Shown piece by piece: positions 21,742 to 55,455 of a stretch of 64,000 bases of DNA. This DNA comes from Pegea sp. RAD2-039 (lineage: Eukaryota > Chordata > Thaliacea > Salpida > Salpidae), in contig JAQGEQ010000137.1 in NCBI GenBank assembly GCA_034620365.1, positions 186,001 through 250,000 on the forward strand, in the 5' to 3' direction. Under the pieces are notes generated by a model that searched no databases, was not told the origin of the DNA, and saw only the letters and a list, made by a program, of their open reading frames with translations. Each line of letters begins with the position of its first letter. Positions within the stretch are counted from its first letter, which is position 1. The translations under genes were made by a program, and so were the position numbers.

Positions 21742-23375
21742 ATGGCTGAAATAAAGAATGAAACTACTGATGAAAAAAGTATAAAACAGTTTTTATTCAT
21801 AAATATATTTCTACTTTTAGCTTGGCTTCAAATAAAAACTTATTTTTGATCTATTATCTTTTATGAAATTATATTTTTTAATTAAAATCTTTTTGTAATC
21901 ATTTTTATAAGCTTTTAGAAAAATCATATTTCTTAAAAATAATAAAATCTTTTAATTGAAGCAAATTTACAAGAAAATTTGAATGTGTTTTATGATTTTA
22001 TGCTTTTTTTGATAAGATTAATTTATTATAAAAATTCTAGAATATTTTTTTCTAAACTTTATGTTGTGTAACTTTCTTGTGTTTGTACTTCCTTAAATTA
22101 GTTATTAGCTTATTTTAAAAGCATTTTTAGTAATAATAACATTTTTTTATACATTCTAAGTATTTTTTGATTAATGTTATTTCATTCATTATATTACAAA
22201 CTTTATTTTTTAGGATTATTTATAAAAACCATTTAGATATTTTCTTTTCTTTATTTGTAGTTCCAGAGCTGCTAGAAACAGATTTAGATTTAACCGTCAA
22301 AAAGAAAAAGAAGAAAAAGAAAATTGAACCAAAATTAGAAGAGTCAGTCTCTGAAGAACAGAATGTTGTTGAAGGTAATTTTTTTTGATTTATATTTTTT
22401 CTGACTTTCTTTACAATTGTTTTTCAGGTGATACAAATTCTCAAGATCTTAAGGTACAAACACCAAGATTTGATGTAAAAATTGTTTCTAATTTGTGAAA
22501 ATATTTAGAATAATGAAGATGATGAAGGTTTACTTGATTTAACCAGAAAAAAGAAGAAGAAGAAAGAGAAGAAACCACTGGAAGATACTGAGTCAGCAGG
22601 TAGAGTTCTAAACCAACGAAACTGGTTTTATATTCATTGAAATAATTTCTTTTTTAGTAAATACTGAGAACTTGCCTGCCGAAGACCATGAGTATACTTA
22701 TGAAGAAGTAAGATCAGAAACTCCGTCTCTCTCAATAACTTCATCACCTTTTTCCAGCTTCTTTCAAGAGCTTTCAGTATGATGCGGCAACTAAACCCTG
22801 ATCTAGTTGCTGGTGAAAGACGTCGCTTTATCATGAAGCCACCACAATGCGCGCGCGTCGGAACCAAGAAAACCTCGTTCGTTAACTTTATGGAGATTTG
22901 TCAAATGTAAGATCACATCTGTGACATCTTCAACATTATTATCAATTGTCTTTCTAGGTTAAGAAGACAACCGAAACACACTCTTGCATTCATATTAGCA
23001 GAACTCGGGGCAAGGTACAATTGTTGTAATTTCTAATCAATCGGATTTAAATGGTTTATTTCAGTGGTTCTGTTGATGGTAACAACCAATTGATTATTAA
23101 GGGCCGTTTCCAACAAAAACAATTGGAAAGTGTTCTTCGTAGATACATCAGTAAGTATCCCTAGCAACCAACATCTCAATAACGTTCTTTCTGCAGAGGA
23201 ATACGTCACGTGTCATACTTGTAGATCGCCTGACACGCTTCTCGAACGTGACGTCAGACTTTATTTTCTTCGCTGTAATGTCTGTCGTTCCAGTTGTTCC
23301 GTAGCAACCATCAAGTCTGGGTTTCAAGCTGTTACTAACAAGCGCGCTCGTATGCGAGCTAAAGCTAACTCCTAA
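21742..23375 (+). CDS. EIF2S2: Translation initiation factor eIF2, beta subunit
   Basis: Exons: 21742-21778, 22261-22374, 22428-22453, 22509-22599, 22658-22707, 22758-22906, 22958-23014, 23065-23150, 23197-23375; 262 residues with phases closing. eIF2-beta is part of the ternary complex that delivers initiator Met-tRNA to the 40S ribosome in the cytosol. Two Lys blocks are visible, K26-K33 and K73-K78, each preceded by an LDLT motif; such blocks bind eIF5 and eIF2B-epsilon. The C-terminal core is highly conserved ([41 protein letters not shown]). It ends in a C2-C2 zinc ribbon with Cys pairs in [11 protein letters not shown] and [10 protein letters not shown]. It is shorter than the vertebrate protein (about 330 residues) in the N-terminal tail. 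The first intron is 482 nt. Confidence 0.96.
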
Positions 23376-23414
23376 CTTTTTTATCTACTTGATTCTATCA
23401 AAACCTTTCAGATA

Positions 23415-23420: not shown

Positions 23421-24242
23421 ATTTTAATTTTTCTGCTGGTAGTTTTCGTGGCGAATATCAAGAAGAGATGCATTTTGTTTAGTTAGTCTTATTTTCAAGT
23501 GTCTGCAGGTACTTTCCTGTAATTACAACATCAATAAACCAATTAGCAAATGCATTTTCTTCTATTGTTGGTTATCTATAATTCTATTTAGTTCAAAAGA
23601 TATAAAAATATCAATTTATTATTTCTAATAAATCTCAACTATTTATTTTCCTACTTTTACATCACTACTAAATCTCAATCTTTAAAGTTCAGAGTTCAGA
23701 AAACATTTTAAATAAAATTTATGAATGTTTATTACAAAAAAGTCCTCTTAAAATACTTTCAAAGTTTTAGATGTTTATAAAGATATATTTATATTTTGTA
23801 AATAATTGTTTAGATAATATCAATATATATTTTAATGTAATATCAATTATTATTATTATAAGAAACATTTTATATTTAAATCTCTCTAACTTACAATTAT
23901 TTTCTTTATTCTGTAATTTCTAATAAATAATTTTAATAATGACAAAAGATGCTAAACTCAGTGAACCCTGTATCTAGAGAACAATTTTGTAGAGCAGTAC
24001 TGAAACAAATTAGTTGCAGCATACCGAACTAACATTATGGCTTTTTATCCAAATTACATTTTGATAAAACTGCGTGAATACATTTTAGTCGAAAAATATT
24101 CCCTAGTTCCTTTGTTACTTGAATCAAACAATTATGACGTCACTATTGACAACTTGATAAATACGAAGTCGAGTAGAAATTAGTAGAAAGCGAATTAAGA
24201 AACAGCATCGTAAGAAAACGCATTTGAAAATAAGGATAAAAG
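23421..24242. other. Intergenic between EIF2S2 and RGS22-like gene
   Basis: AT-rich, with one TGACGTCA palindrome at 24135-24142, about 100 bases upstream of the RGS22-like start, where it could act as a CRE-type promoter element. No ORF. Confidence 0.55.
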
Positions 24243-27200
24243 ATGTCCTTTGTGTCTGTAGAAATGAAAATGCTGTACAAAGAAAATATTACTCTCACAC
24301 AATTTAAAGATTTATTAGAAGAAGATTTATTCCTTGACTATTTTAACAAGTTTCTTTGTTTACCGGTAAACATCAAAATCTTTGATAATCAGAATAATTA
24401 GAAAGATAATTCTTTTCTAGATTTTTCCTCAATGTCTTCTCATCGAAAAATCAAAACCTTGGATATTCAAGATGTATCCAAAGTTGAACGACAAATATGT
24501 CAGTTCGATGACGTCATCTAGTCATATGACATCATTACTTTTCAGAAACTAGACGCAGATGGCGTGTTACAGTATCTATGGGAACGAATGTATCGCGCTT
24601 TCATTGAAACCAAGTTCTATGTCGAATATCTAATCGCAAAAGAATTACTTCTCGCGCCTATGACGCAATCAATCGACAACCGAGTGGCTGGTTAGTGTTG
24701 TGACGTAATACAAGTAGAATTTCAATCGAGATGTTGACAGGATTTGAAGACGATTGTCAAAATCTGGTGAAAAACGCAGTGAGTTGGTTGAAATCGAAAT
24801 GTCTAGGTGGCGCGCTAGCACTTAGGAAGTTTCGGGACTTTATGACGCAATATCCGGAAGCGTATAAACTCTTCCAGTATTGGTTAGATGTAGAATATTT
24901 GTGAGTTGCCCCTGGCAACAAGTCCTAGCAACGAGTCTCATTTAATAACTGATTCAGATACCAAAGTCGTTCTTCGACCTTTTCACGAAGCTTCGAGCTT
25001 CTTAAAAGAAAATATTTCCACTGCAACGGGATCGCCGCCTTTCAACAACAAGTTCTCGACGCCGCCAACGATCCGTCTGAATCGCGAGCCTATGACGTCA
25101 CGTTCGCTTTTCGTTTGCAACATTTATGCTTTCAGAAAATCAGCAGCCATTGGTTGCTTAATTATCTACTAATATCGCGTGTGAACGCCGTGACGTCATG
25201 CGAGCGATCTTATATGTTGCTAGCACATGACTTTCTACGAGGCGAAGCACCTTGCAACGATCGCGTCGAAGAACTTCACAAATGTGGTGACGTCATCAAC
25301 GCGTTATCATTAGTCAGCACTATCCGTAGCAACTCGCCAATACCTAGCAAAATACAGCGAATCGCGGTGAATGACGTCAGCACGATGCAACCGATGACGT
25401 CACACGACGAAGAAAACTCACAAGTGATGACGTCATACATAATCTTCATCGTAACTTAGAGATAACTTCCAGGAAAGAGCAGATCAAATACAGCTGGGAA
25501 CAAATAAGATGAAAAAGATCAGAAGATGGAGCGTTGTCAATGGCAACGAATACAAGCTGCGATTCGCTGATGGAGACGCGATGAATGTACGCTTTGTTGT
25601 TGTCATGGCAACCATCTAACTGTCTTCTGTACAGTTGTATCGAATCGATTATGACGTAAATACTTCCGCTGGAAACAATTTACCGAAGCTCAAAGAAGCA
25701 CCTATGACGTCACAAGATAATGGCGAGATGAGGTTTGTCTGACGTCATCATATGACGTCATATTGATTTTACTGTTGTTAAGTTTGAAGAAATCGAAAGC
25801 TAACGTGAAAAAGTGAGTCTTCTTCGTCATGGCAACGTCACTATGACGTTGATTGGTTGTCAGGATGGATAGTGGCGACTTTGAAGTGGTTTTGTTTGAG
25901 GATTATCGCGATAATGATGAAAATCGACGAATAATCGCGGCGCTACAAACAGATGAAGCTGCTGCTCACCCCTTTCAATCTTATTTGTTCAAATATAAAG
26001 ATTTGGAAAGCTTACATTTATTTCTTTTCTGGCGTGACGTCGAACAACTGAGAAGAAATTTCCGATTTTGTATCAAATCGTTCGACTATTTCCTAATTGC
26101 TGTAAGTTTGTTGTTGATTGTTGTTGTTTGTTGTTGTTTGTTGTTGTTTGTTGCTACTGACAACGCGATCTTTTTCAACAGCTTCGACAAATCGCGGATA
26201 AATATTTAGAGAAGAATGCACCGAAGCAGATCAAAAAAGATCTCGATAAATCGGCGACGATCGCTCAATTGAGGAATTCTGATTACGTCACACTGCCTTC
26301 GAGACTTCGACAATTACACAAAGAAGTATTCCTGCAAATCAAACCTCTGTTTTTTGAATTCTGGCAAAAAGAGTTAAACTTATTCTACGAAAAAGCGGTT
26401 AGTGCTCTCGTGGTTGTGACGTCATCATGATGTGATTTGTTGCAGGTTTACGGGATTTATGACGTCATAGAATTAAAGAAGCATTTTGATCATAGAAATG
26501 AAGAAGATGAAGATTGTGTGAAGAAGATTAAAGAGGTTGAAGCAAATCAGGAAAAAGTTCCGGCAAACGTGAAGAAACTTCCGGTGATTTACCGGAAACA
26601 GGACCGGAAGCAAGATCAAGATAAAAAGGAAGTCGAAGCTAAAATGACGACGAGAAGAATTCAGAAAAAGGATTTAGTGGATGATGAAAAGAGCGCGAAT
26701 ATAGATCTGATGAATAAGTTTAAAAGACTTAAAAATAAACGAGATCACGTCATAAGGGGTGGAATAAAAGTAGATATCATGAATAATGATGATAATGTGA
26801 TAAAGATCAGGAAATGGAAGACAGAGAAATTAGTTGAAGAGAAAAATCAGAGACTTCCAATGATTAGGAACAAGGATTTTATCAGAAGCTCAAAGATGGT
26901 GGATTTAGAAGCTAATGATATAAAGTTACCAAATATCAAAAGTTTTGAACCGAAACAAATTAGAAAAAAGAAAAGTATTCAGATCAAATTAACCAATAAA
27001 CAACCATATACATTCATAACTCCAAAAACCTCAACTGAAACCATGATCCAAAGACTAAAAGATGAAGAGCAACTTCTTCAAGATAAACATCCACTGAAAT
27101 TCAGGTTTAGCAAGATTGAATCAGTAGATAAGATGCCAAAAAACTTTGGTTTTAAAAAAAAGATGAATAAAAAATCGATAAGTCTACCCCAAAAATTTGA

Positions 27201-30200
27201 AAGAAGAAAAATTAATATTGATGATGATGATGAGATATTCGTGTTAGGTGGCGTCCAAAAGAAGTATCAAAGTAAATTTGAAGAGAAAATGCAAGTTATC
27301 AAACGAGAGAATTTAAAAGCTGATAAAAAGATGAGGATGCTTTCGAAGTCTAATTTTATGACTACTCGGGTACATAAACGTTTACCAGAACCATTATATC
27401 CACCAACAGAAACACCACGTGCCGCGCCAAAACCATCTGAATCCACTTTAAGTTTACGCCAAAATCGAAGTGGGAATATCAAGCAAAAAGTAGATTTGCT
27501 ACAAAAAAAACAGATTAGTTCACGGAATGAATTACAATCAGCTGCAAAGCTTAACCATTTATCTGAACAATCAAACCAAATGAAACCACCAAACCAAATG
27601 AACTCTCAAAGTCAGCTTAGAATAGAAAGTCAATTTAAACCCCGAAGCCAATTCAAAATAGAGAATCAATTCAAAATAGAAAGTCATTCCAAATTCCAAA
27701 GTACATCTTCACGAAACGAAAAGAAAACCCTTTTATCCAATGACCCCCAACCTTCAAAAGACAAGTTGTCAAAAGGAGTCACTTCTAACTCCAATATCCA
27801 ACCAAAAAACCTCTCGAAGACAATTAGAGTGAGGTCTCGACGGACACCAAATGTGAAAAGTATTGCAGGTGAGCAGTATCTTTGACTCCTGAAGAAAATA
27901 TGATGTTGAAACAAGTAGAGCGAGTGTTTCTTTGAGTAGAAGTCCTGAAGAAACGTTTGAAAGTAGGAATGATGATGTTGAAACAAGTAGAGAGAGGCTT
28001 ACGGGATTGTTTAATGGATAGTTACTTTACACAAAAAGTCGATAGTAGAAGTAATCACATGATCGATGTACGCGCTTTTTTTACAGCTGCAGATTTGACC
28101 TTTGAAAGTAGGAATGAGCAAAAGAAGCAAGATAGAGACAGTGGAAAGGATGAAGATTTACTGACTAGTAAAGTAACAAGAAAGAAAAACAATAATGACA
28201 AGTTGAAAAATGAGTCAAACATGAAACGTTAGTTTTGATTAGTTAAGTTTGTTCTTTTTATATCTTTTAGGTATGGTTGAAGCTATGATGCAAAATGAAA
28301 TCCCAAATTACCTAAAGAAACTTGAATATAATAAAAAAATACCAAATGGTTTAAACAAGATGGACAAAAGACCACGTGGTTTCTCTTTGAACTTCAATAT
28401 TTCTAAGAGTTTTTTAGCATTTGAATGCTGAGTCTCTTCTTTCTAATTATAATTCAATTCAAAATTTCCAAGAGCTGGAACCTGAACAGAGAGAGATTTT
28501 AGTTGATACTTTGATCTTGAATCATTACCTGAAACCAGATTACATCCCAGCGTGAGTCTTCTTTAACACTTCACTTCTTTCAAACTTGAATTTGTGATGA
28601 TGCAGAAACAAAGATCTTTTAGGTGAATTAGCGAGAATACAAATTGATATTAAAAAGAAAATGAAACATAAATGGTTCCCTCGTTACCAGTCGATTTTTA
28701 AACAAGACTCCATAGCAACGCCAATCACAAAACGCGCGATCGCTCGGAAAGATTACGTCCGTAAATTTGTTCTCGACTTCTTCCGTAGAACAATCAGATT
28801 TGTCGCGAGCATGAGAAACAAAGAAACCGCGTCAGACTTCCGTAACTACCTGCTTCAAATAAGTCAGCATGGAGATGAGGTGGTTGCAGATAAACACGCG
28901 AACACAGAAGCCGGTAGGTGGCGTAGTGATTAGATGAGTATTTAGATGAAGATGTCAACAGGTTTGAAATCGGATATCTTCAGATTTGAATCAGAGAATC
29001 GAACTTTTTATTCCAATATCGCGCGCACGTCGCGTCAACTATCAGCTGTTGCCGAATGATTTCGACTTCTGGATTGAACTTGATTGATGAGTATTTAGAT
29101 GAAGATGTCAACAGGCTTGAAATCGGATATCTTCAGATTTGAATCAGAAAATCGAACTTTTTATTCCAATATCGCGCGACGTCGCGTCAATTATCAGCTG
29201 TTACCGAATGATTTCGACTTCTGGATTGAACTTGATTGGTGAGTGACGTCATCAACGCGATAGATGTTGATTCGAGAATGATGTAGCTACCAGAGGAACT
29301 CTGATATCGCGATTCGAAACGAGTCAAGTATTCGATGGATTTTGAGAAAAGCGCGACTCATCTATTTCAACTTCTTAAACTCATCGCTGCCTCCGCCTCT
29401 GCGAGTGAGTCTTTCGGATGTTGATCTTCGGATGTTGATCTTCTGATGTTTATCTTCTGATGTTGATCTTCTGATATTGATCTTCGGATGTTGATCTTCG
29501 GATGTTGATCTTCTGATGTTGATCTTCGGATGTTGATCTTCTGAAGTTGATCTTCGGATGTTGATCTTCTGATGTTGATCTTCGGATGTTGATCTTCTGA
29601 TGTTGATCTTCTGATGTTGATCTTCTGATGTTGATCTTCGGATGTTGATCTTCTGATGTTTATCTTCTGATGTTGATCTTCTGATGTTGATCTTCTGATG
29701 TTGATCTTCTGATGTTGATCTTCTGATGTTGATCTTCGGATGTTGATCTTCGGATGTTGATCTTCTGATGTTGATCTTCGGAAGTTGATCTTCTGATGTT
29801 GATCTTCGGATGTTGATCTTCTGATGTTGATCTTCGGAAGTTGATCTTCTGATGTTGATCTTCTGATGTTGATCTTCTGATGTTGATCTTCGGATGTTGA
29901 TCTTCGGATGTTGATCTTCTGATGTTGATCTTCGGATGTTGATCTTCTGATGTTGATCTTCGGATGTTGATCTTCGGATGTTGATCTTCGGATGTTTTTT
30001 AGGTGAACATCCCATTTGAAATGAGTGAAAAGGTCAGGAAGTCTCTGAACATCGGGATCATTTGGAGATCGATCTTTCACGCCGCGAAGCTTCATCTGCT
30101 TCCACCTCTTCTCCACTTCTGGAGCAAGTGAGTTTTTAGCGACCACTAGAAGGCGTAAGTGAGCAGCTTCTTCGATTGAAGATTTTGTTGGGAGAAGTAT

Positions 30201-30775
30201 TCTTACAACGCTATAAAGAAGCCATCGCGTTATAGCGTCAAGAAGATCGTCCAATCAAACTTCGCGCTTCCAATATTTCCGGTGGCGAAAAAGAAATGTT
30301 TCAAAACTGGTTTGGTTCATCAACCGGAAGTTGATCCGGTCGAAATCCAGGATCTCAAACTAAAAGATTTAACAAAAATCTGCCCCAACAGAAACCAAGG
30401 TTTGTTTGAATCGATCGCGTTTGTGACGTCATCGCTGAATCGTTGTTTTTTGTGGGCAGATGAATCATCCCTGATCTGCTACTCGTTGAGTCGAGGAGGA
30501 TATCTGATGCGTAATATAAGCATGGCCGAACTGTGAGTCGATTTACAATCCATCGCGCGGTTTTGCAACGTCATATCTTCTTCAGAACGCTGACTTATCA
30601 AAGAGCAAATTTCGATAAAAGAAAAAGAAGAAACCCGGAGGTAGACGACGCGGAAAGCCGGAGTATGTTCGAGGTGGATAAAATCGATGATGACGTCAGC
30701 AAAGAAGAGATGGAAGCGAGATTCATGAAGATCTTCAGAACAGAATCTGAGATGATTAGAAAGGGATTGTATTGA
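24243..30775 (+). CDS. RGS22: RGS22-like multi-RGS-domain protein
   Basis: Exons: 24243-24365, 24421-24498, 24546-24690, 24741-24900, 24958-25423, 25473-25586, 25635-25732, 25783-25812, 25864-26101, 26182-26397, 26446-27868, 27940-28227, 28271-28378, 28473-28551, 28606-28913, a duplicated exon (28984-29086 and 29137-29238), 29287-29404, 30003-30127, 30182-30399, 30460-30532, 30586-30775; about 1566 residues. The N-terminus (LLEEDLFLDYFNKFLCLP) matches the RGS22 N-terminal motif. RGS-type regions lie at about 130-225, 405-556 and 1210-1420; the last includes FPRYQSIF, IELFIPIS, FLNSSLPPPLR and VNIPFEMSEKVR. The 474-residue exon 26446-27868 is a Lys/Gln-rich linker absent from vertebrate RGS22. 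RGS22 is a large G-alpha-interacting protein of testis and ciliated cells. Uncertain parts: exon borders at 27869-28085 and 28379-28472, and the duplicated exon (see findings). Confidence 0.87.
26102..26181 (+). repeat. TTG-rich tandem repeat in RGS22-like intron
   Basis: After the gtaagt donor the intron is largely made of tandem TTGTTGTTTG-type units (about 26108-26152), which account for its length (80 nt) over the usual 50. Confidence 0.7.
27885..27992 (+). repeat. Imperfect tandem duplication across intron/exon border
   Basis: A 21-base word, ATGATGTTGAAACAAGTAGAG, occurs at 27900-27920 and again at 27972-27992, 72 bases apart. Both copies are preceded by CCTGAAGAAA. A further word, TTTGAAAGTAGGAATGA (27956-27972), recurs at about 28101-28117. 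The first copy falls in the predicted intron 27869-27939 and the second in the exon, so the duplication blurs which splice sites are used. Confidence 0.75.
28933..29237 (+). repeat. 153-bp tandem duplication of an RGS22-like exon
   Basis: Copy 1 is 28933-29085 and copy 2 is 29086-29237. They are about 97% identical, differing by four substitutions and one 1-base deletion. Each copy carries the intron end, the acceptor cttcag and the exon encoding DLNQ(R/K)IELFIPIS and LLPNDFDFWIELD. Copy 1 keeps the reading frame but has no GT donor at its end: the junction reads GATTG then ATGAG, giving an in-frame TGA at 29085-29087. Copy 2 has the donor gtgagt but lost one base in the CGCGCGC run, which shifts the frame. 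Confidence 0.93.
29417..29990 (+). repeat. 14-bp minisatellite, 41 copies, filling an intron
   Basis: Unit GATGTTGATCTTC followed by G or T, 14 bases, about 41 copies (574 bases). Point variants recur (GAAGTT, GATATT, GTTTATC). The array lies inside the 598-nt intron 29405-30002 of the RGS22-like gene, between donor gtgagt and acceptor ttttttag. Because 14 is not a multiple of 3, the antisense strand yields the same 14-residue peptide period in every frame. This creates two long overlapping antisense ORFs that are not genes. Confidence 0.96.
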
Positions 30776-32081: not shown

Positions 32082-33908
32082 ATGGGTGAATATAGTGGAG
32101 TTTTCTCAGATGAAACTATGATTGAATCCGGTTCAATCTCTCTTTCATTGTCGAATAATGACAGAAATGAAATTTGGGGAAATTTTCCAGTTCTTGTTGA
32201 TAGTTCAGTTCAACTTCTACCAGTTGAAGAACAACAATATCAACACCATCAACCAAATACTCTCACATATCAACATTTATTACCATCCAACAACCAACAA
32301 CCATCTTTCCCATCTTCTAGCTTCCCTACATCAACCAGTAATGGTTTCCTAGCAACCAGTTCAAACAGATCAACAATGAATTTCAATAACAACAGTATCA
32401 ATGGTTTCAATGGAGCCAATCAAATAAACGACCATTTTGTACCTAACCATTCTTCGGACAATTTCGAACAAATGCCCGTCAACTCGTCGATGCAGGTTAG
32501 TCAACTTCCGGTCTATCCGCGATTCGAAATTCAATTTGATTCTACAGAAACACACCTTCGATGCACCCTATATGTCCAACCCGCTTCGTATACGAGTCCC
32601 TACTCGACAGGTTAGTGACGTCATTGCTTCTCGAAGTAAGGGTTGTCATGCAAGTGTGTTTTAGGTCGGATACAAGTAAGAAAAGAGCCTGTAGTGACCA
32701 GCACTAGACATAAGGTGAGTGATGACGTCATGAAACGCGATTTAGTGACGCGGTGATTATAGGCGAATGAATCGAAGAAGAAGACGTCGAGAAAACGGAA
32801 GAAACGAAGTGGCGACGAACCACAGAAACCCGTTTCCGCTTACGCCCTTTTCTTCCGGTTAGTTTTCACCCTGAACTTTGACTTTCGCGTTTTCGCGTTT
32901 TCGTTTCTTCAAATCGATTTTTGTTGATATTTAGTGACACTCAAGCGTCCATCAAAGCGGACAACCCGACCGCGAGCTTCGGGTCCATCTCGAAGATAGT
33001 GGCGACGATGTGGGACTCTTTGAGTGACTCCAGGAAGTTGGTGAGTTGCCCCAAGACATCGAGATCTTTGATCAAAAGCTTCGAGAAGCTTCGAGAACAT
33101 CTACTTCCACGACTTGAGATAAATTGGAATTTTTTAGGTTTATAAACAGAAGACAGAAACTGCGAAACGCGACTACTTGAAGTTACTAGCCGCTTATCGC
33201 GCAAATCTCGTTTCCAAGGTAACAAGAAACAAATTAGTAGCATCATAATGAAGTTGTCGTTGTAGGGTTGTCTTGACATCGATTCTGACCACAGTAAACA
33301 GGTCTCTCAACCACAAAATACACAACAGCAAGCTTCGCAAGTGTTTCATGATGGACATAATTACTCTCAAATGGTCCTCAATAACCAACTTCCTTTTGAA
33401 CAAAACTATTCTTCATTTGGTAAATTGAGTAATTTTTCAAAATTAATATTTGATTTGTTGTTATTCACAGCAAACAACTCGACAAACGAGACTTGTGTGT
33501 TTCAATCGTCACCTACGTCACAATGCAACACTTACAACAACCACATGCAAACCACTACCCATAACTACCAGCCTAGCAACCAACAGTCCCAATTCTCCTG
33601 GTTACTGACCAGTACCGGACCACAAGCTTCACCAGGATTTACAGGCTCAGAAACAGAACCACCTTACACACAACAAGTCATCAGCAACCAACAATTTCAT
33701 GAAAATGTGAGTGATGACGTCATCACTACATGTGATGTCATCAATTATGACGTTTCAGAGCCTTCCTCCATTGATAATAAACCAGCAACTTCAAATGCCG
33801 AACCAACAGCAGCAACAGCAACCACCGCCTCAGCAACAGACTGTTTTACCTCAACTAGAAAATCGAATTTATTCTTATAACGAAAACTGTTTTGAGAACT
33901 TGCCTTAA
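32082..33908 (+). CDS. TOX: TOX-family HMG-box transcription factor
   Basis: Exons: 32082-32610, 32665-32714, 32763-32857, 32935-33040, 33138-33218, 33266-33419, 33471-33706, 33759-33908; 466 residues with phases closing. The N-terminal exon is Asn/Gln/Ser-rich with no ordered domain beyond a segment before residue 176. A basic nuclear-localisation cluster (KKKTSRKRKKRSG, about 197-209) precedes the HMG box at about 211-285. The box carries the TOX signature EPQKPVSAYALFFRDTQA, then TMWDSLSDSRKLVYKQKTE and YLKLLAAYRANLVSK. The C-terminus is Gln/Pro-rich (a run of six Gln). TOX proteins bind distorted DNA and regulate transcription in the nucleus. Family assignment is firm; which TOX paralogue (1-4) cannot be said. 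Several introns carry TGACGTCA palindromes. The final intron could be read through in frame, giving an alternative Ala/Thr-rich tail. Confidence 0.9.
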
Positions 33909-36490: not shown

Positions 36491-36747
36491 ACAAGATCAA
36501 AACCAGTTGAAAAATTGTTTAAAAACTTTGAAATGTTCATTTGTTTGTAAAAGAGGTTTGTGAAGATATCCTTTCATTCTGAAGGACATGATATCAGCAA
36601 ATCGACGGAGCAATTTGATTCAACGATGTGGATCTGAGGTTTTTGGGGCGCAACGTGGCAAGGGTCTTTGAGATCAAAAAAGATCTTGAATCGATTGCCG
36701 CAGATAGTTTGCAAACTGCACGAGAGTATTGCAGCAAGATATAGATC

Positions 36748-36754
36748 GAGGTAG
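36748..36754 (-). promoter_or_regulatory. let-7-type seed match (7-mer)
   Basis: On the transcript strand this reads CTACCTC, complementary to let-7 positions 2-8. It lies about 420 bases after the TRIM71-like stop codon, inside the predicted 3' UTR. The next base is not A, so it is a 7-mer rather than an 8-mer site. Confidence 0.55.
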
Positions 36755-37061
36755 GAAGTGACGTCACATCATTCGCACGCGCGTTATTCAACTATATGAG
36801 GAAACAGGAACGACAAAGATCGACTAAACATAATATGGAGTACAACGTACAAGACTTGATGACGTAATAGACGCGAAACGTCGCGTGCAGCAGTTATAAT
36901 AAAAGCAGCATAAAACTCAAAAAGTACCAAAAAGTAGAAAATCTCAGCGAATCATGTGATTGGACGCGCGAAATGACATGATCAGCTGATTGAATGGCGA
37001 CAGAAGAAACGTGTGACGTCATCATCTGGATGTCGGGATCTGTTGTGGATGAGAAGGGAAG

Positions 37062-37069
37062 TGAGGTAG
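37062..37069 (-). promoter_or_regulatory. let-7-type seed match (8-mer)
   Basis: On the transcript strand this reads CTACCTCA, a full 8-mer let-7 seed match, about 105 bases after the TRIM71-like stop codon. let-7 repression of LIN-41/TRIM71 through paired 3' UTR sites is a classic conserved circuit in bilaterians. Together with the site at 36748 this is the same arrangement. Confidence 0.65.
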
Positions 37070-45802: not shown

Positions 45803-46886
45803 ATGTGTCTATACTGGTCGATTTATTCCTTGGCACCAGCAGTCATCGCTTTACTAGTTGGTGTAGGACTGTTTGCTCTGTAAGTTGAAGTAAATCAACT
45901 AATTTAATATTTTGATAAACTTTCCTCTCAGATATGGCTGGTCTTTATCCAAGAATCATATCGACAAGTTACCATCGTGGGCATTTGTAAGTGAGTTGGA
46001 ATTACATGAGCCAGAGAGAAGTGTCTTTTCTTTCATCTCGATTTGGGGGATTATTCTTTTTTTGTTCACAGTTCTCTTATACTATCTGTAAGTAGCTCCA
46101 AGTTCTAATTCCAGTTTTAATATCAGATCATTTTGAAGGTATGTGAGGCAGATAACAGGAGGAATAAAAACCAATAAAATCGCTTTGATTTTTGGCTTTA
46201 TTTCTTGCATTGGATGTTCCGTAGTTGTATCATTTTCTGTAAGATTTTTTCTACATCTCAAAACCCTCTGATCTTCATTTGATCTTCATCTTCAGGTTGA
46301 GACTATCCCTTTTATGCATTATCTGGGATCAGCTCTTTCATTTGCCGGGATCACCATCTACATCTGGACTATTTGTTCTTTAAATTATAACGTCACAGAA
46401 AGAAGTACTTCTTGCATCGTCATCTTCAGGATAATCATTGCTCTTCTGCAAACTTTCTCTTTTATTTTATGTATCCTTTTTTAACAGATATTTTTTTAAA
46501 TTTAAAAATTCTAATTTTTAACTTCATTTTTCTTAACTTCAATCTCTATTTGAAGTGGTCATCTTTGGAGCGCTCTTTGTGAGTCTTTGAAACAAAATGA
46601 GACTCAAAAAATTGATGATGATTTATTGTAGAAACGAGGAGTAACACCAAAAAGCCTCGCAGCTATTTGTGAATGGTTCACGATTTACTTCATCATCATC
46701 TTCATCGCTTCTCTATCACTTGAACTTTGCAAAATCCGAAAATGTGAAATTGATGTTGATGTTCGTCATGATCCTTTGTTTAGAGCTTCTTCTGATGGTT
46801 CTGATGGTTCTGGGTCTTCTTCTTCTTCATCTTCTCCTAGTGAAGATGATGAAACTACTCGACTATGCGCTGTGACCAGCGAGTAA
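45803..46886 (+). CDS. DRAM/TMEM150-family six-pass membrane protein
   Basis: Exons: 45803-45879, 45932-46087, 46139-46238, 46296-46470, 46556-46578, 46632-46886; 261 residues with phases closing. Six hydrophobic segments are visible, beginning APAVIALLVGVGLF, FISIWGIILFLFTVLL, IALIFGFISCIGCSVV, LGSALSFAGITIYIW, IVIFRIIIALLQTF and AAICEWFTIYFIIIF. The HYLGSALSF and AICEWF patterns are those of the Frag1/DRAM/Sfk1 family. Vertebrate DRAMs are lysosomal or plasma-membrane proteins that modulate autophagy. The cytosolic tail is a Gly/Ser/Asp-rich acidic stretch. Orthology within DRAM1/DRAM2/TMEM150 cannot be settled here. Five introns of 51-85 nt. Confidence 0.8.
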
Positions 46887-46976
46887 CCGCTAGTTGGCGG
46901 TAGCGAGTTAATTTGTAATTGGAAACTTATATTACTCGGTTGTAAAAAAAAAGTCATTTTTTAAGGTTGTTGCCTC

Positions 46977-46982
46977 AATAAA
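46977..46982 (+). terminator. Poly(A) signal of DRAM-like gene
   Basis: AATAAA 91 bases after the stop codon. Confidence 0.6.
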
Positions 46983-47321
46983 GTTTAAAAAAAGAAATTA
47001 ATTTTAGAAATCAGATAAATCATCAGCAGATTTGAAATCTTGAAAATCTTTTTAACTTTTTTTTCCGACTTCTTTTATCTTTCTTCAAATTTTTTTGCTT
47101 TTTAATTTGATATGTTTGTAGCTTGATGACTTCACAGTTTTAGTCAGAAAATAAATAATTGAAAGCAAAAGTTCGGTGTGACGTCATCAGTGACGAGTTT
47201 TCAATCAGATTAATTATTAACAAAAGTCATAAGTTTCAAACAAATAGTTTTTATAAATCAATTTTTCTACTTTTGATTTTAGATTAAATCTTTCAGAAAC
47301 TTGTTTATAAGCTATTAAGTG
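46983..47321. other. Short intergenic, probable Stum-like promoter
   Basis: Only about 340 bases separate the DRAM-like poly(A) signal from the Stum-like ATG. The stretch contains TGACGTCA at 47179-47186, and a second copy overlaps the start codon at 47326-47333. Confidence 0.5.
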
Positions 47322-48977
47322 ATGATGACGTCATCGGCTCCTCCCGCGTACACTGAGAAACAGGTAAACGCGCGATTGATTTTCTAGTTGAAAGAATTTT
47401 TTTACTTTTTTTAATTTTTTGTTCGAAATTATTGAATAATTGAAATTTTTCAAGTAGGGTTTTGATGGTCCAGAGGTGACCCAATATACACCTCAGTATG
47501 CCACTTCTGGGCCTCAACCACCACCCCCCCCACCTCAAATGCAGCCCGTCTTTGTGCCCTACCAGGTACAGCAAGAACAAAGGACCCTGGATAAGATTAA
47601 GGCTTTTATTCCTCAATTACCAGTTTGTGTGGCGGTCACCAGTCTTGTGCTTAATTGTATAATTCCTGGTATAGGTAAGACATTTCGCCCAATTTGTCGA
47701 AATCACTCAAGCGTGACGAATGTTTTCAGGAACAATATTTGCAGCTTTTGGAACTTTGTGTTGTGCGGACACAAAAGGTATTAAAAGAGGACGGTTTGGA
47801 CTATTTTGTATAAACTTTTGGTCTGGAATTGGCCAATTGATTTTAATTCCGTTCGGAATTGGTTGGGTTTGGTCTGTTTGGTGGGGTATGATGATGTTAC
47901 ACGCATCTAGTAAGTTTAAATGATGAGTTTTTTGTATGAAAATATTTGTTGATTGAAAACGTGATTTGTTTCAAATTCAAAAAGTTGAAAATTGCCGAAG
48001 AAAATTGAAGAAATGAAAATATAAATAAATCTATAAAGTAGTAAAAATGTAAGGAGAAAAGCTCCTTTATAAGAAAAATTACTTCGTTTATAAGATTATT
48101 TCAAATATTTCGACAACAATTTTTGTAAAAAACCACAAGATGCTGGGAAAATATGATTTTGACTTCAATTAGCTACTTTTAAAAAACTTTTTAAAAATTT
48201 TCAAACTTCTGATTAAAGACAAAAGTATTGATGTTAAACTTCCTAAGAATTCTTAAATGAAATTATTTTTAGTGAAATTTTTATTAATTTTTTGTTATTA
48301 TCACGTTTTCATAAATTTAAAAACTTTGAAAGTTGTTCTTTTAGTCACATTTAATTATTTATTTCATTTTTATATTTTAAAATCTATTACTAGCTCATTA
48401 TTAGTTGTTTTTGTGTTTGCTGATTCATACAAAGACAGTTTAATGAAATGACTTAATAATAAAATTTATTGATGACCACAAAACTTACATATTTCAACGA
48501 ATATTCAGTTATTTTTATAGAAAATTACAAATATCTTCAAGTTATTATATTCGTGAAATTAGGATTATTTGAGAACAAATCATGATGTTATACAAGATAC
48601 ATTTAAGCTTTTGTTATTTTTTATATTTAATTAATTTCTATTTTCACAAATGTCTTTAAAACTTTAAATTGTCTTTTCTATTTAACATTTTCTAAATTAT
48701 TTTTATTTCCTTCTTTTGAAACACAAATTTTTGGAGTAATAAGAATATTCTTTTCCAGAATTGAGCACCTACAATAATTTGCTTTTAACCACTAAATATG
48801 ATAAATTTAATTTCAAATTAATATCTTTATCTGTTTTGTTTTCTAATTACAAAATTTATTTATACTTTAGAAGCAATTAATTTGGAAGAACAATCTTATG
48901 TGACAACTGTACCAACTGTGGTTTCAACTACTACAGCATACCCGCGGCAACCAACCCAAACACCAACTGCTTATTAA
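47322..48977 (+). CDS. STUM: Stum/SPEC3-family membrane protein
   Basis: Exons: 47322-47363, 47458-47674, 47730-47909, 48871-48977; 181 residues with phases closing. The N-terminus is Pro/Gln/Tyr-rich with a run of six Pro (about residues 34-39). A conserved two-segment hydrophobic region follows: VAVTSLVLNCIIPGIGT, then FAAFGTLCC, and FCINFWSGIGQLILIPFGI with GWVWSVWWGM. The NCIIPGxGT and GWVWS motifs mark the Stum/SPEC3 family. Drosophila Stum is needed for mechanosensation, and sea-urchin SPEC3 is expressed in ciliated ectoderm. The tail is Thr/Pro-rich. The start Met-Met-Thr-Ser-Ser is encoded across a TGACGTCA palindrome. The last intron (961 nt) is the longest I resolved in the window. 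Confidence 0.85.
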
Positions 48978-50128: not shown

Positions 50129-50256
50129 ACGAAAATAAGAACTGCTTCGAGCGTTTAACAGTGAAAAGTGACGTCATCATCGCTAAAGTCACTTCACTAG
50201 TGATGTCATAATCATTGGATGCCAAGGACGTTGTCCTGGTTACTGAGGTAAAAACG

Positions 50257-52697
50257 TCAACAGCGTTTGTTGAAAATCAATTGGATTTCTTCTTCTGAAA
50301 GAAATTTTGTTTCTGGGACTACAAAGTAAATAAACAAAAGCGTTAAAGAAGCGACTGCCAAATAAGGCAACATCGCCCATACGCCCAAGGTTTCCTGCGA
50401 AAGAAAAAGAATAAAATGATTCTGTCATGATGATTATGATGACTCACATAAAAAATAGGAGTCAGAAAAGATACAAGAGTGAATGAACCCCAAAAACAAA
50501 AGACGCAGATAGCAACAGCTGCCGGTCTTGCCTTATAAGGAAATAATTCTGGAATAATCGTGTAACAAACTAACCCTGAACCCATATTGACGCTTGAAAC
50601 AAACCCTGTTCGAAAATGGTCGTTTTTAAATATGGCCTGATGTTTATATTTACGAACCAATCATTGAAGCGATACTGATGTAAGGCATCCAAGCAGTTGT
50701 GTCTTGAAAGATGCAAGAGATCGTGTAGAGAGTATGTGAGATGATGACAAAGAGGTTCCCATACAACAAAAGACTTCGACGACCAAAACGAAGAGCAATG
50801 AAACACTGCAACATCCGGAATCAAGAAAGAGTCCGAAGATGAAGATACACTTACGCCACAAAAACTCGATATAAACTGAACAACGGCGATAATAATTGAA
50901 GCGTAACAAGTCAGTGAATCAGGAATTCCTGCTGCTGAAAACGCGATGTTCAAGTTGTTCTGGACTCCGTTGATGCCACTTAATTGTGATGATGACATCA
51001 CTACGCAACCGGAGAATAATTGTAATCGTAAACGTTTTGAAACCAGTACCTGTGACATCTACAGATTACAATCCAGTAGAGATAAAAGATGAGATACCTG
51101 CCACAGGGAAGCAAACTTAGTGATTGGTTGTTCTTCAATCAGACCTTCATTTGAAGCTATTTTCTTTACACGAGGGTTCAAACATTTCGAATATCTGTTC
51201 GAGAAACGTTGCTAAGTGATTTAAGGTGCTGAGGAACGTTTGTTACTTTCTATTGGTTGCTATGAAGAATGTGAAGATTAGAAAAAGGAAACTTGGAATT
51301 GCTGGAGTTGCAAGGAGCAAGAAGAGTTCTTGTGAACCACCCAGAACCTGTTTGAGTCCAAGAACATTTCCAAAGATTGCTCCAACTGAGATAGCAACTG
51401 TAAACATGGAACCAACAAATCCTCTAATACGATTGGTTGAGAGACTTGAGACGAATATTGGACCAACTCCTGAGCACAAGATGATGACTTGAAGTTTACG
51501 AGGTTCGATTACTAACCGAGTCCAAATCCAGTTAAAATCCCAGATAAAAATCGATCTAACAAGATAGCATTAGATACATTAAAGAATATCAAAGCTGATA
51601 TAATCGTGCTGATGACGACGTTCGCGATCTAAAACAATGACGTCATCATTGACACGTGACATGTGCTTGTGTTTACTTGACAAGTGACAAGGCTTCTTAA
51701 TGACGATACAAATGATAGAGTGAATCGAACTGCTAAAGAACCAATAACTCCACCAATAGGAAAAGCTGTAGAAGTTGTAATGAAGTGAAGACGGCGCTGA
51801 CTCGTTGGCATGTAGTAATCGTAAGTTTTCTGCAAAGTTTTGTGACGTCAGCTGATATAGAAGTCAAATCGCTTTATGACGTAATTTTCATCCAAACTCA
51901 CGTAGTAAGTTTGATTTGCAAATTGCAGAATACTTGCTGCTGCTGCATTGTTTGTTCCAATAGTGTAACCGTAAGAATAATTAATTGATAAAGCACAAAG
52001 TATAGCGAGAAGAATTCTACATTTTGTGAGGTTTACGCCGTGCTGCTGGAACAATTTGAATTATGAAGATATCTTAGTTTCAAAAATTAGCAAATATTTA
52101 ATGTGAGCTTCGATTTTTGACAAAAAGCCAAAACTGTTTTGTTTTATTTGAATAAAACAGCAAATAATCTGATGTAAGTTCTTATATAAATTTTAATTAA
52201 CAAAATTCAGTTTTATATAATCAGCAAATATACTTAATTATCGGTAAATATTATATATTTACAAACTTTTCAAATATTGTCTAGCTTTTGTAACCATGGT
52301 CATTACTGTTTACTTTTTTTTGACACAAACTTTATGACTAAGGTAATGTTTATTATCTGCGGAATGTATTTCTAAATTAAATTAAATTAATAAAACTTTC
52401 AACTAAACCATAATAAAATACAAAAATATCTGTTGTGCATCTTTAAAAAGTGATTTGTTTTTAAATAATTGCTTTAAAGTTCACTTTAGTAAAAGTTACT
52501 AACATTTAACACCGTTTCATGATAAATAAATATTATTAACTGACTTTTAGCAAATAGCGGAAACACAAACGCAACATAATCCTGTTTTTACTATTTGACT
52601 AAATATTAGAATTTCAACTTACTTTGCTATTATATAACTGATCTAATCCTGAGTAAAGTGTCTTGTCTTCATCTTCTGGTCTAATGTTTGTTTCCAT
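50257..52697 (-). CDS. SLC2A/GLUT-family hexose transporter, divergent
   Basis: Ten exons, in transcript order: 52697-52623, 52045-51902, 51829-51710, 51628-51517, 51469-51247, 51194-51098, 51049-50855, 50805-50658, 50605-50448, 50394-50257; 469 residues with phases closing, close to the family length (about 490). About 12 hydrophobic segments are present. Family marks kept are QLSGIN in TM7, RFGRRS after TM8, PELFPYKARPAA after TM10, and the terminal VVPETK. Marks missing are the GRR motif between TM2 and TM3, the Glu of the GE-SP motif after TM4, and PESPR after TM6, where the loop is short. Substrate is unknown. The QLS motif is associated with glucose in class I GLUTs but is weak evidence here. 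Introns are 47-53 nt except introns 1 (577), 2 and 3. Confidence 0.87.
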
Positions 52698-55455
52698 TCT
52701 TTTAGAACAGTCAGTTCAATAAAAATTAATCAACAAAAACATCTGAAATAAACTTGTAAAGTTGTTTAACTTTTAAAAATTCAAAATTCAGAATATTTGG
52801 AAAATACGGAAATGAAATTAGCATTTAACTTTCTCCTTATTTCAAAATAATTTTTGGAATATTTTCTTTCTTCAAACAATTATCTAATCAAGCTTCAGTC
52901 ATCTATAAGTTGTCATTTCCTTAGTTTCTATTTACTATAAAGATTAAATACAATATATTGTCGAAAAAAATACTCACAACTTATATTACAACATCTAATT
53001 AATACTTTAAGTTTTATTCAAGATTAATTAATAAATTTACTAATTAATAATGTTATTACAGCAGTCAGCAAAATATTTCATGAATATAATAATTTAGTAG
53101 AAATACAAAGTAAATTTATTCAATTCATATCTGACAACAGTTTCAAACTAGTAAAAAAAAAAAGAACATTTTGGTCTAAAAATTGAAGCTAATAAAAAAC
53201 AAAAAATAAATCAAACTTTTAAAAATTAAATTTACCAAAATGCTAAGCTGTTGAAAATAATGAGCCTCGAATTGAAGAATATATTTTAAGCTAATTGAGG
53301 TGGAAAAATATTTCATTAATCTTAACAATTTAAAAGTATTTATTGATTTACTTGCGGCTTTAATTAACGTTTAATATTTCACTTATTAAAACTTAATTCT
53401 CCAGAAAAACCTCATCATAATTCAGTATTTACTTTTAATGTAATTTCCTGATTTCATTTAATAATGACACAAGCTGTATAAAGCAGCCTCTTTTAGCTTC
53501 AATCTTATTTCTAAACTTTTGTAAAGCTTAATTTCTAAACATTAGAACACTTCTGGTTGTTTTTTTATAACCACAAACCTCAGTGGCTGTAAGTTTTGTT
53601 TTTCAGCTGGCTGCAAATCGGTTGTCTATTTACTCCAATGTTACATAAAAACAGAAAAACTTTTTTACAAAAACAAAAAACACAACAATTTTTGTAAAAT
53701 TTATTTCTATTTAAACAAATAAGTTGCTGAAACTGAAGAAAGTTAATGAAATAAAATTTTTGGTGATTCATGAATAACAACAACAATATGAATGTTTGTT
53801 TGTTCCACTCTGTAATCAGAGTTATAACTTTTGTTTGTAACTTGTACCTTGTTGCTGCAACAACTGCCTTTCTACCCTGAAATTATCGACTGGTGCTGTC
53901 TACAAAGTCATCAGACAGTTTTGTAAATTGTGAATTTGAATAAATCAAAATAACTATTTAAGCAAATAAATGTTTATTTTAAAAAACAGAAATGCTAATT
54001 GCTGATCAATGTTTTGCTAAAATCTTTTATATATTTATCAAAGTATTTTCTATTCTGTTGTTAAAAAAACTTTAATTTGAAGTAACAAATTTTAGATAAA
54101 AAATAAAAAGTTAAATGATAATCACTAAGTTTTATATTAACATTATCAGCAGTTATTAATACCAACTTAAACTAAAAATAAATTTGCTGATTATTCTTAT
54201 TTTTAAATTATCAGTAAACATATTTGCTCCTCAGCTTAGTAAATTCATTCTGTAATAAAAACTTGATAAAATAACAACTTCCTGATCAATAATAACTTTT
54301 GCTACTAAGTCTTGTAAACATTTTTCATGAATTAAATTGATTTGAAATCGTTATCAGGATATTTTATTGAATAGTTGGTCGATGCACAAATGAAGAAATT
54401 CATTATCCTGTAATTGTTAACTGACGTCATTGTGGCTACATATAGTCAACTCTCGAATTAATCTTTTAAAGTTTCAGCTGATGGAAATCAGTGGTTGAAA
54501 GGGAGTGGACAACAATACCTGCACACATATACCTTCTTTAACCTTCATAACTTCATTTCTCAGCTGATGACAAAGTCAACTGATTGTAGGTTTTCTTTTT
54601 GTATTTACTCTTAAGTTGTTTCTCTCGAAAGTCAGTATTATTAGTAGATGGTGCGAACGAGGTCATTATGGTACTCATGGCTGGCAAGATACTTTTCACG
54701 CTCTTTAGGTTGTGGCTTTTTAAACATATCAGTATTGACCAAACCTTATTGATTTAGAACTTAATAGACAATCAATTATTTTGGTAAATATTTATTGACT
54801 AATTTTTTTAATTTATTGAGAAAAAACCAAAAGACTATCTTAAAAATTCAGCAAATGCTATCTAGTAGTCGACTTTTTTTTATATTTCAATAAAAAGAGT
54901 AAATTAAACAACTCAGTATTTAGTAAGATCTTAAATAAAAGTTTTTTGAGTAATTTAAATAATCGATTGAATGTTTTATTAAAAAGGAAAAATATAGTTC
55001 AGTATATACTCAAAAATTCTGTACAGCTATATAACGGCTTTTAGGGTGATTAATTGAAAAAATAATTAAAAAATAGTTTTAAAAAAACTATATAAACGTT
55101 TTTTATCCAAATGAAGTAGTTATTAGAAATATAAAGGTCATTAATACAATATAAACTACTACATTCAAACTTTTTTAATTATTCCAGATTTCACTTTAGG
55201 GGAATATTTTTAGATCTTCATTCTCGTGGTTGAGTAGATCGCTGGTTATCTGCTAAAAAAAATAATTTTAAAAAGTTCGATTCTATCAATTCGTTTTTAT
55301 TTAACTTTTAAAATTTGTTCGGAAAAAATTGTTAATATATTTTTACATTATAATCTATTATTTTTAGCTTTACTTATTTCAATTTGTAACTTCAGTTTTG
55401 CTACGTGTAATTTTATTAATTTGATTTTTATGAAAATCTAAATTTTCGAAAGAAA
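52698..55455. other. AT-rich intergenic, 2.8 kb
   Basis: Shared upstream region of the GLUT-like (minus) and TEX10-like (plus) genes. One TGACGTCA lies at 54422-54429 in a slightly less AT-rich patch (about 54400-54720). No ORF is supported. Confidence 0.5.

Follow-up and report, generated by a model that had tools for sequence, protein, structure and literature searches.

The cyclic-AMP response element (CRE), with the core TGACGTCA and a central CpG, is the canonical site of CREB/ATF/JUN proteins, and a purine 5' and a pyrimidine 3' of the core are typical of bZIP sites. Canonical CREs are sparse and focused on promoters. In mouse germ cells, CREM sites are reported to cluster near -150 bp (PMC3091680). 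The same sequence serves in fission yeast as the M26/CRE hotspot of Atf1-Pcr1, which acts inside a gene; M26 is described as a nonsense mutation within ade6, and natural M26 sites supposedly mediate about 20% of meiotic recombination in this yeast (PMC9775316). In budding yeast, three tandem copies of M26 (ATGACGTCAT) in the ADE2 ORF are reported to raise recombination about 4-fold, and a single copy there to be not significantly active but active in the promoter (PMC3534124).

The genome studied here holds 27,792 CREs in 106 Mb, and these, unlike canonical sites, fill gene bodies including coding exons. They share with canonical CREs the core, the purine/pyrimidine (R/Y) flanks and the central CpG, and the genome encodes cognate bZIP domains of JUN-like and CREB-like type. 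The M26 hotspot motif would be expected to erode, whereas the motif has multiplied in the present genome. PATCs, the periodic An/Tn clusters of Caenorhabditis germline genes, resemble the CREs in being spread over the introns and UTRs of a gene class. They are AT-rich, however, whereas in place of periodic AT runs we found a discrete GC-containing site of bZIP type with one preferred spacing, present in exons as well. HIP1, the highly iterated palindrome of cyanobacteria, is likewise a single 8-bp palindrome hugely over-represented genome-wide, coding DNA included, but it is prokaryotic and lacks the gene-body confinement and the bZIP flank rule. Among the papers listed by literature searches, none was seen to describe such CRE-filled gene bodies.

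Abundance and word specificity

In the window, the whole stretch of 64,000 nucleotides that was analysed, our recount reproduced the 32 copies of TGACGTCA at 23249-54429 given in an earlier note, with none in positions 1-23248 or 54430-64000. The half copy it had expected by chance was also close: dinucleotide shuffles (100) gave a mean of 0.60 and a maximum of 3, and first- and second-order Markov models predicted 0.57 and 0.44. Fourth- and sixth-order models, which already include most of the word itself, predicted 9.0 and 29.5. The flank form RTGACGTCAY was found in 26 of the 32 copies. The CREs at 33715 and 37633 form, with their flanks, two previously noted 16-bp palindromes, GTGATGACGTCATCAC, of which the genome holds 154. 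Gene models in the following list come from a gene finder run with a stiffened intron penalty; introns of this genome are about 50 nt long.

23249..23256, no strand: first CRE, in a coding exon; the gene has an eIF-5_eIF-2B domain and is presumably eIF2-beta; flanks not R..Y
24135..24142, no strand: CRE upstream of the 24243-30775 gene model, at a distance of about 100 bp
24243..30775, + strand: CRE-rich gene with 15 CREs, 1627 aa in 21 predicted exons and no Pfam match of its own, which we take to be RGS22-like
24509, 25428, 25740, 25753, 26417, 29244: intronic CREs of that gene (gene finder)
25093, 25191, 25288, 25372, 25395, 25705, 26460, 30424, 30691: exonic CREs of that gene (gene finder); 30424 appears intronic by eye
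25740..25760, no strand: CRE pair, 13 bp apart, in a single predicted 50-nt intron
32082..33908, + strand: HMG-box gene, presumably TOX-like; CREs 32616, 32723 and 33715, all in predicted 48-54-nt introns
33711..33726, no strand: 16-bp palindrome, predicted 52-nt intron
36594..39890, - strand: NHL-repeat gene (gene finder and Pfam NHL), assumed to be TRIM-NHL-like; six CREs, in exons at 36759, 37014, 38316 and 38615 and in introns at 37148 and 37633; 36759 and 37014 are perhaps 3' untranslated
37629..37644, no strand: 16-bp palindrome, predicted 48-nt intron
45803..47923, + strand: predicted gene, 6 exons, weak score of 28; a predicted intron of 586 nt contains CREs 47179 and 47326
50169..50176, no strand: CRE about 80 bp past the predicted 3' end of the 50257-52697 gene
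50257..52697, - strand: predicted gene, 9 exons, one ORF matching Sugar_tr; CREs 51638 (48-nt intron) and 51843 (exon)
54422..54429, no strand: last, outlying CRE, without a gene model; flanks not R..Y

Pfam support for the RGS22, TOX, eIF2-beta and TRIM names was limited to eIF-5_eIF-2B, HMG_box, NHL and a sub-threshold Filamin match. The window has no copies at its edges, since these consist of intergenic DNA, LINE sequence or genes of a CRE-free class.

The enrichment, taken in the earlier note as regional, is genome-wide. The 27,792 copies (105.7 Mb) compare with 969 of the reversed control, and 23,214 of them have the form RTGACGTCAY (control, 228). The equally palindromic TTGACGTCAA occurred 204 times against 160 for its control, near background; the outer base pair is therefore decisive. 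In a 200-kb sample drawn from contig C1 at fixed steps, the GACGTC core was the most enriched 6-mer relative to a second-order Markov model, and among 8-mers seen at least 20 times the leaders were ATGACGTC (41-fold) and TGACGTCA (39-fold), an excess that counters, as far as this sample goes, the earlier concern that a Markov expectation might already account for the density. A similar rise of all CpG palindromes, the other concern raised there, was not found: in 88 kb of multi-exon gene bodies (window plus 24 sampled stretches), TGACGTCA occurred 63 times against 54 for the other 63 NNNCGNNN palindromes combined. Around CRE clusters, for which the CRE was the criterion of selection, exact sites numbered 130 against 0.86 expected, TTACGTCA was raised 14.9-fold, and other one-letter neighbours were at most 3.4-fold enriched.

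Flanks of 128 sites oriented by gene were nearly symmetric, so it is duplex DNA that appears to be read. The flank rule points to a CREB/ATF/JUN-type bZIP dimer and not to an effect of CpG, hairpin or palindrome. Chance and base composition were rejected by the shuffles, the Markov models and the expected counts for each sequence class.

Placement in genes and codon choice

All 73 CREs of the window and the 24 stretches were classified, with the LINE and a 14-bp tandem array masked in the density counts. Short introns held 20 CREs in 11.0 kb (expected 0.12), coding exons 39 in 76.8 kb (expected 1.10) and intergenic DNA 3 in 151.6 kb (expected 0.58), or 1.8, 0.5 and 0.02 per kb. Without the window, the 24 fixed stretches gave 9 in 6.7 kb (0.05), 24 in 57.3 kb (0.76) and 2 in 132.3 kb (0.50) for the same classes, one stretch holding 20 of their 41 CREs. 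Intergenic DNA makes up about half of the sample. In the sampled DNA the CREs keep to the transcription unit and become sparse outside it. They occur in introns, in exons and next to genes, which agrees with the earlier note's introns, exons, UTRs and start regions.

A metagene of 22 CRE-bearing genes, excluding models that scored below 28 or had fewer than 3 exons, showed 1.2-2.8 CREs/kb in every fifth of the body; the 7.9 kb lying 300-1000 bp upstream held no CRE. There were 4 CREs in 2,648 bp (1.5/kb) at 100-300 bp upstream of the ATG and none in the 1,530 bp nearest it. Measured from the ATG in these 22 genes, there was no promoter-type concentration just upstream of the start, in line with the earlier view that promoter function is no explanation. 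CREs were over-dispersed among genes under the same exclusion, 14 of 30 lacking one where 5.1 were expected. Within short introns, 13 of 41 CREs begin 4-10 nt past the 5' splice site.

Exonic sites override codon choice. In CRE genes, Asp-Val in a CRE-compatible context was encoded as GAC GTC in 29 of 37 cases, where codon usage predicts 4.7%, and Thr-Ser as ACG TCA in 24 of 32, where it predicts 3.4%. Compatible Asp-Val contexts numbered 37 in CRE genes and 6 in others, an enrichment that costs the protein something, and a regulatory benefit, if mild, would have to exceed this cost; compatible Thr-Ser contexts in CRE-free genes numbered 4, the LINE model being excluded. Only 2 of 55 exonic CREs fell in an impossible frame, about 18 being expected at random given that the word was masked, and by arithmetic about 6 of the 55 may therefore be mis-modelled.

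Spacing, gene classes and bZIP domains

CRE pairs lying 20-21 bp apart, or two helical turns, numbered 882, more than twice the 378 at 25-26 bp or the 400 at 30-31 bp. A separate gapped-pattern count gave 5,280, a lower bound, as it apparently took one partner per start. There was no second peak at 30-31 bp, and a ten-bp periodicity was rejected on this ground. Some CREs lie inside minisatellites with units of 19 bp (locus L003), 63 bp (C1:5276652-5279007) and 25 bp (C14:874420-874652). In the intronic L003 array, 7 of 17 units carry the CRE intact and the spacer is conserved about as well as the core (0.88 versus 0.91), so those copies look unconstrained. No obvious telomere repeat was seen at the four contig ends examined. 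A search for innexins found none, with controls that were uninformative. A glass-sponge origin was set aside, going by averages, since the mean introns published for O. minuta (341 bp genome-wide, 194 bp on one scaffold) and A. vastus (516 bp on one scaffold) do not match.

CRE density climbed with exon CpG o/e (rho 0.48, p 0.007, n=30; same model cut-off, 36 of 49 multi-exon genes), with exceptions: three CRE-bearing genes had a CpG o/e of 0.54-0.56 and one CRE-free gene 0.88. The CpG gradient around sites is confounded by exon and intergenic composition. CRE-rich genes identified included a cyclase-domain, an FH2 formin, an NHL-repeat, an HMG-box and a kinase gene; CRE-free genes were LARP1, a kinase, a GHMP kinase and a sub-threshold Ipi1. 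As few genes were identified on either side and kinases occur on both, a division into housekeeping and regulated genes is a suggestion only. In Pfam searches of six CRE-dense loci, L001 gave no match, nor did L003, scanned in a single frame.

The genome yielded at least 12 bZIP_1 matches; of two domains fetched, one was JUN-like (JunD chain, 1.4e-20) and one CREB-like (CREB1 chain, 1e-19). Expansion of the bZIP family as the cause was rejected, the 12 matches found being a lower bound.

Explanations for CRE-filled genes

The reading we favour, and believe about as much as we doubt, is that these CREs are maintained by a CREB/ATF/JUN-type bZIP dimer reading double-stranded DNA, as a multi-site platform in the bodies of a subset of genes. 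One gene class, relatively CpG-rich and plausibly unmethylated and regulated, would carry CREs across the whole transcription unit, with several in some introns and with frequent spacings of two helical turns. The platform would most likely keep the gene body accessible and unmethylated and let its transcription respond to cAMP or stress signalling; any one site would add a little and be held by weak selection. CREB1 binding in mouse cells is described as methylation-sensitive (PMC9729108). We infer that the force at work is selection on accessibility or regulation and not conversion drive. The missing promoter peak, unlike the CREM sites of mouse germ cells, sits uneasily with a platform, as do the unconstrained-looking L003 copies, the Asp-Val cost, the exceptions to the CpG link and the missing 30-31 bp peak. 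A bolder form, which we put forward tentatively, is a genome-wide gene-body code in which a bZIP dimer on dense, helically phased CREs, covering whole transcription units with their coding exons, would mark a gene class as self or open. This would be a licensing system of PATC type made from a transcription factor's site or, if drive is at work, such a site propagating itself through the bodies of germline genes.

Binding-dependent conversion drive, in which a bZIP protein bound in germ cells would bias strand repair or meiotic conversion toward the CRE allele and spread the site through germline-open genes without benefit to the animal, seems unlikely. It would suit gene bodies filled at protein cost, coding sequence included, and the state of the L003 copies; the intron excess, about e^5, matches by arithmetic a scaled conversion advantage of near 5. 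A break hotspot normally erodes its own motif through conversion, so the bias would need the opposite direction, for example by shielding the bound allele; nor is the 20-21 bp preference predicted. The sequence ATGACGTCAT is itself a meiotic hotspot motif (M26/CRE) in yeasts, and the three tandem copies active in the ADE2 ORF recall the multi-copy arrangement here, but the single copy lacked significant activity there and worked in the promoter (PMC3534124).

Ordinary CREB/ATF targets in a compact genome, that is, conventional enhancers happening to sit within genes, are a rather improbable account. The identities of the CRE-rich genes would fit, and other factor-type words (TGACGTAA, CCGGAAG, TCACGTGA and GTTGCYA) are likewise denser in those genes, but promoter focus is absent, exons are covered, and the 7.9 kb at 300-1000 bp upstream is empty though intergenic DNA accounts for about half of the sample.

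Mutation bias, whether toward CpG or palindromes or by protection of bound sites without advantage, is very improbable. CRE-rich genes do tend to a higher CpG o/e, but a bias of the first kind is already largely refuted: a general CpG-palindrome excess was rejected because the other 63 words together are rarer, and the palindrome or hairpin as such because TTGACGTCAA is not clearly enriched. Protection would have to cut mutation more than 100-fold to yield 20 short-intron sites against 0.12.

An RNA-level signal, with self-complementary UGACGUCA acting in splicing or hairpins of the pre-mRNA, would match the peak density in short introns and the sites near 5' splice sites, but it is scarcely credible given the near-symmetric flanks of gene-oriented sites, the lack of clear enrichment of UUGACGUCAA, which pairs as well as AUGACGUCAU, and the 207 of 240 short introns without a CRE. 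A relic of a dispersed repeat or transposon, suggested by the minisatellite copies, has an equally slight probability and is refuted for the bulk of the sample, since flank information falls to background more than 3 bases either side of the 73 sites.

Taken as a whole, the earlier note's interpretation is partly supported. Its bZIP-site candidate gains strong support from the flank specificity and fits the spacing; protection from mutation, taken alone, is disfavoured by the size of the short-intron excess, and a replication signal by the confinement of sites to genes.

A well-known regulatory site thus appears in an unexpected role, in some 28,000 perfect copies that are mostly intragenic in the sampled DNA and that bend codon and amino-acid choice. 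This suggests either an unrecognised form of gene marking or control, or a spreading motif. As a natural experiment, the genome would allow one to ask whether weak selection or binding-dependent drive can spread the sites of transcription factors, and how gene bodies stay open and unmethylated.

Abundance of the CRE palindrome

Within positions 23249-54429 of the window, and nowhere else in it, the eight-base palindrome TGACGTCA, the cyclic-AMP response element (CRE; core GACGTC), was counted 32 times. Shuffled sequence gave 0.60 on average, which confirms the excess described in the earlier note. The two 16-base palindromes also lie where that note had placed them, at about 33711 and 37629. 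The window corresponds to C23:186001-250000 of an assembly of 105,744,746 bases in 387 contigs, across which TGACGTCA occurs 27,792 times compared to 969 times for its letters reversed, and the 16-mer GTGATGACGTCATCAC 154 times compared to none for its control.

The earlier note had named a sufficient Markov expectation, or a similar enrichment of all CpG palindromes, as grounds for refuting the excess, and in the DNA sampled neither accounts for the density. Contig C1 was sampled at regular steps for a total of 200 kb (stretches L005-L024). There the both-strand count of TGACGTCA was 80 versus 2.06 under a second-order model, no 6-mer was more enriched than GACGTC, and ATGACGTC and TGACGTCA led the 8-mer ranking. 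The next CpG palindrome was TCACGTGA, with 4,614 copies genome-wide compared to 237 for its control. In multi-exon gene bodies, TGACGTCA was found 63 times versus 54 for the 63 other NNNCGNNN palindromes combined, and every single AT-only palindrome was rarer.

Placement within gene bodies and coding exons

Gene models were built with a purpose-written exon-intron finder, with the CRE masked to keep it from influencing the models; intron lengths had a sharp mode near 50 nt. All 73 CREs in the window and 24 fixed-step stretches (L005-L028), together about 300 kb, were then classified. The window had itself been picked for its CREs, and the same placement was found in the 24 stretches without it, 20 of which are from C1 of this one genome. 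L015 alone supplies 20 of their 41 CREs, and 14 of the 24 have none.

CREs by compartment in the window plus L005-L028 (first-order expectation in brackets), then the same for the 24 fixed-step stretches without the window
Short introns: 20 in 11,037 bp (0.12); 9 in 6,740 bp (0.05)
Coding exons: 39 in 76,756 bp (1.10); 24 in 57,332 bp (0.76)
Long introns: 4 in 23,924 bp (0.11); 1 in 17,601 bp (0.08)
500-bp gene flanks: 7 in 36,818 bp (0.14); 5 in 26,027 bp (0.10)
Intergenic: 3 in 151,645 bp (0.58); 2 in 132,300 bp (0.50)

The excess and the flank rule described below are genome-wide, and confinement to gene bodies is an observation on the sampled DNA only. Density was measured along 22 multi-exon genes with CREs, of which 16 belong to the window or the fixed stretches and the others to CRE-selected loci. 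It was 1.2-2.8/kb in each fifth of the gene body, 4.4/kb in the first 100 bp past the stop, and 0.4/kb at 300-1000 bp downstream. Upstream, it was 1.5/kb at 100-300 bp (4 sites), and no CRE was found in the 7.9 kb at 300-1000 bp. At least one CRE was present in 33 of 240 short introns from all loci then fetched, seven of which hold two or three, and by eye one intron of a cyclase-domain gene in L002 holds four, with further CREs in the 3' flank.

Among 55 exonic CREs, 24 and 29 were in the two possible frames and 2 in the impossible one. As the word was masked, misplaced exons would put about 18 (a third) in the impossible frame, and therefore most exonic calls are probably real, with roughly 6 of the 55 wrong. 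In compatible contexts of CRE-bearing genes, Asp-Val was encoded by GAC GTC in 29 of 37 cases (4.7% by codon usage) and Thr-Ser by ACG TCA in 24 of 32 (3.4%), a bias inflated by defining these genes by the word, the remaining genes giving 0/6 and 0/4 by definition. With all genes pooled and the LINE model excluded, the fractions were still 29/43 and 24/36. Compatible Asp-Val contexts numbered 37 in CRE genes versus 6 in others, and incompatible ones 30 versus 38, so that protein sequence is influenced as well.

Repeats and other features recorded alongside the gene models
Window 1288-4352: open reading frame pair like a non-LTR retrotransposon (Pfam endonuclease and reverse transcriptase matches), without CREs
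Window 29413-29996: tandem array of the 14-bp unit TTCTGATGTTGATC, 41.7 copies, 93% match, within the CRE-rich gene at 24243-30775 (+ strand)
C1:2013000-2052100: CRE pairs at very high density over about 40 kb, perhaps a multi-gene domain
C1:5276652-5279007: satellite with a CRE-containing 63-bp unit
C14:874420-874652: satellite with a CRE-containing 25-bp unit
L003 2340-2700: intronic 19-bp minisatellite from a CRE-containing unit
L007 2-10000, minus strand: single predicted open frame over almost all 10 kb, without a CRE
L015 8520-9080: GC-richer minisatellite, unit about 20 bp (TTGAGGTGGTTGTGGGACAG-like), adjoining and within a CRE-rich gene model

Flanking bases and spacing of the sites

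The informative flank extends about 3 bases per side, with the consensus TGATGACGTCATCA and T at -1 in just 1% of the 73 sites. Genome-wide, 23,214 of the 27,792 copies read RTGACGTCAY, the form preferred by CREB/ATF/JUN bZIP dimers. TTGACGTCAA is present in 204 copies, close to its control (160), where AT-rich flanks would give about 3,500 by chance. Since TTGACGTCAA and ATGACGTCAT are equally palindromic and CpG-bearing, their difference is most simply read as recognition by a protein. When 128 sites were aligned in the direction of their genes, the flanks were nearly symmetric, and therefore it is DNA that is read. In 33 kb around CRE clusters, picked by the word itself so that ratios are overstated, and with three tandem arrays masked, exact TGACGTCA was found 130 times versus 0.86 expected; TTACGTCA was enriched 14.9-fold and the remaining one-letter neighbours at most 3.4-fold. 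A bZIP_1 scan of the assembly gave at least 12 matches, and the two examined were JUN-like (JunD chain, E 1.4e-20) and CREB-like (CREB1 chain, E 1e-19). The repertoire found appears ordinary, and thus the sites, not the proteins, seem unusual.

Across the genome, at least 5,280 CRE pairs lie 8-38 bp apart, compared to about 227 for random placement. Pairs at 20-21 bp number 882, those at 25-26 bp 378 (at least 9 from a single 25-bp array), and those at 30-31 bp 400 (at least 34 from a single 63-bp satellite). By eye, about 13 of 50 listed 20-21 bp pairs are tandem runs; spacers in the rest are unrelated, and tandem duplication thus fails for the bulk of those listed. Dimers two helical turns apart face the same side of the DNA, and the 20-21 bp preference may reflect cooperative binding.

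Candidate forces and the class of genes

Under mutation-selection balance, the natural log of the excess would correspond to a scaled advantage per site of about 5 in short introns (20 versus 0.12) and 3.6 in exons (39 versus 1.10). We favor a many-site regulatory or chromatin platform under weak selection, which would produce such an excess and is supported by the spacing preference and gene-class specificity. Binding-dependent conversion favoring the CRE allele, at equal scaled strength, would do the same and is ranked second. It fits the coverage of coding sequence and the L003 minisatellite, in which CRE cores have degenerated as much as the spacers (identity 0.91 versus 0.88; 7 of 17 units intact), but a hotspot motif is expected to erode rather than multiply. 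M26 of fission yeast is a change within ade6 that gives rise to a CRE-like site, and about 20% of meiotic recombination is supposedly mediated by natural M26 sites (PMC9775316). Placed in the budding yeast ADE2 open reading frame, one M26 (ATGACGTCAT) had no significant effect and three in tandem gave a rise in recombination of about 4-fold; one copy was active in the promoter (PMC3534124). By analogy this precedent is suggestive but mixed, and the weakly selected platform is therefore placed first.

The nearest numerical analogue of CRE abundance is HIP1, the highly iterated palindrome of cyanobacteria. The nearest gene-class-wide signal found was the PATCs of C. elegans, which occur in introns and UTRs (PMC6468775). 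Among the papers listed by the literature searches, which covered few subscription papers, none described an animal genome with gene bodies saturated by CREs; this is weak evidence of novelty.

CREs are very unevenly spread among genes: 14 of 30 multi-exon genes had none versus 5.1 expected, and over-dispersion exceeded that in all 20,000 Poisson simulations. In these genes (window and fixed stretches, CRE masked), both the GC content of exons (rho 0.61) and their CpG o/e (rho 0.48, p 0.007) correlated positively with CRE density. Median CpG o/e was 0.89 in the 13 genes with at least two CREs versus 0.69 in the 14 with none, with exceptions both ways. By distance from a CRE, CpG o/e fell from 1.26 at up to 25 bp to 0.62 at more than 1.6 kb, a gradient confounded by exonic versus intergenic composition. 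Companion words were denser in gene bodies (window and L005-L028) with at least two CREs than in those with none or one: TGACGTAA/TTACGTCA (0.35 versus 0.04/kb), CCGGAAG (0.29 versus 0.04/kb), TCACGTGA (0.20 versus 0.08/kb), and RFX-like GTTGCYA (0.67 versus 0.28/kb). The CRE is therefore the extreme case of a broader trend in CRE-rich genes. Invertebrate gene bodies with high CpG o/e are usually those of unmethylated genes. In mouse cells, CREB1 binds in a methylation-sensitive manner (PMC9729108). Together with the CpG o/e link, these points suggest a self-consistent picture in which CREs would work and accumulate in unmethylated genes only, perhaps keeping them unmethylated.
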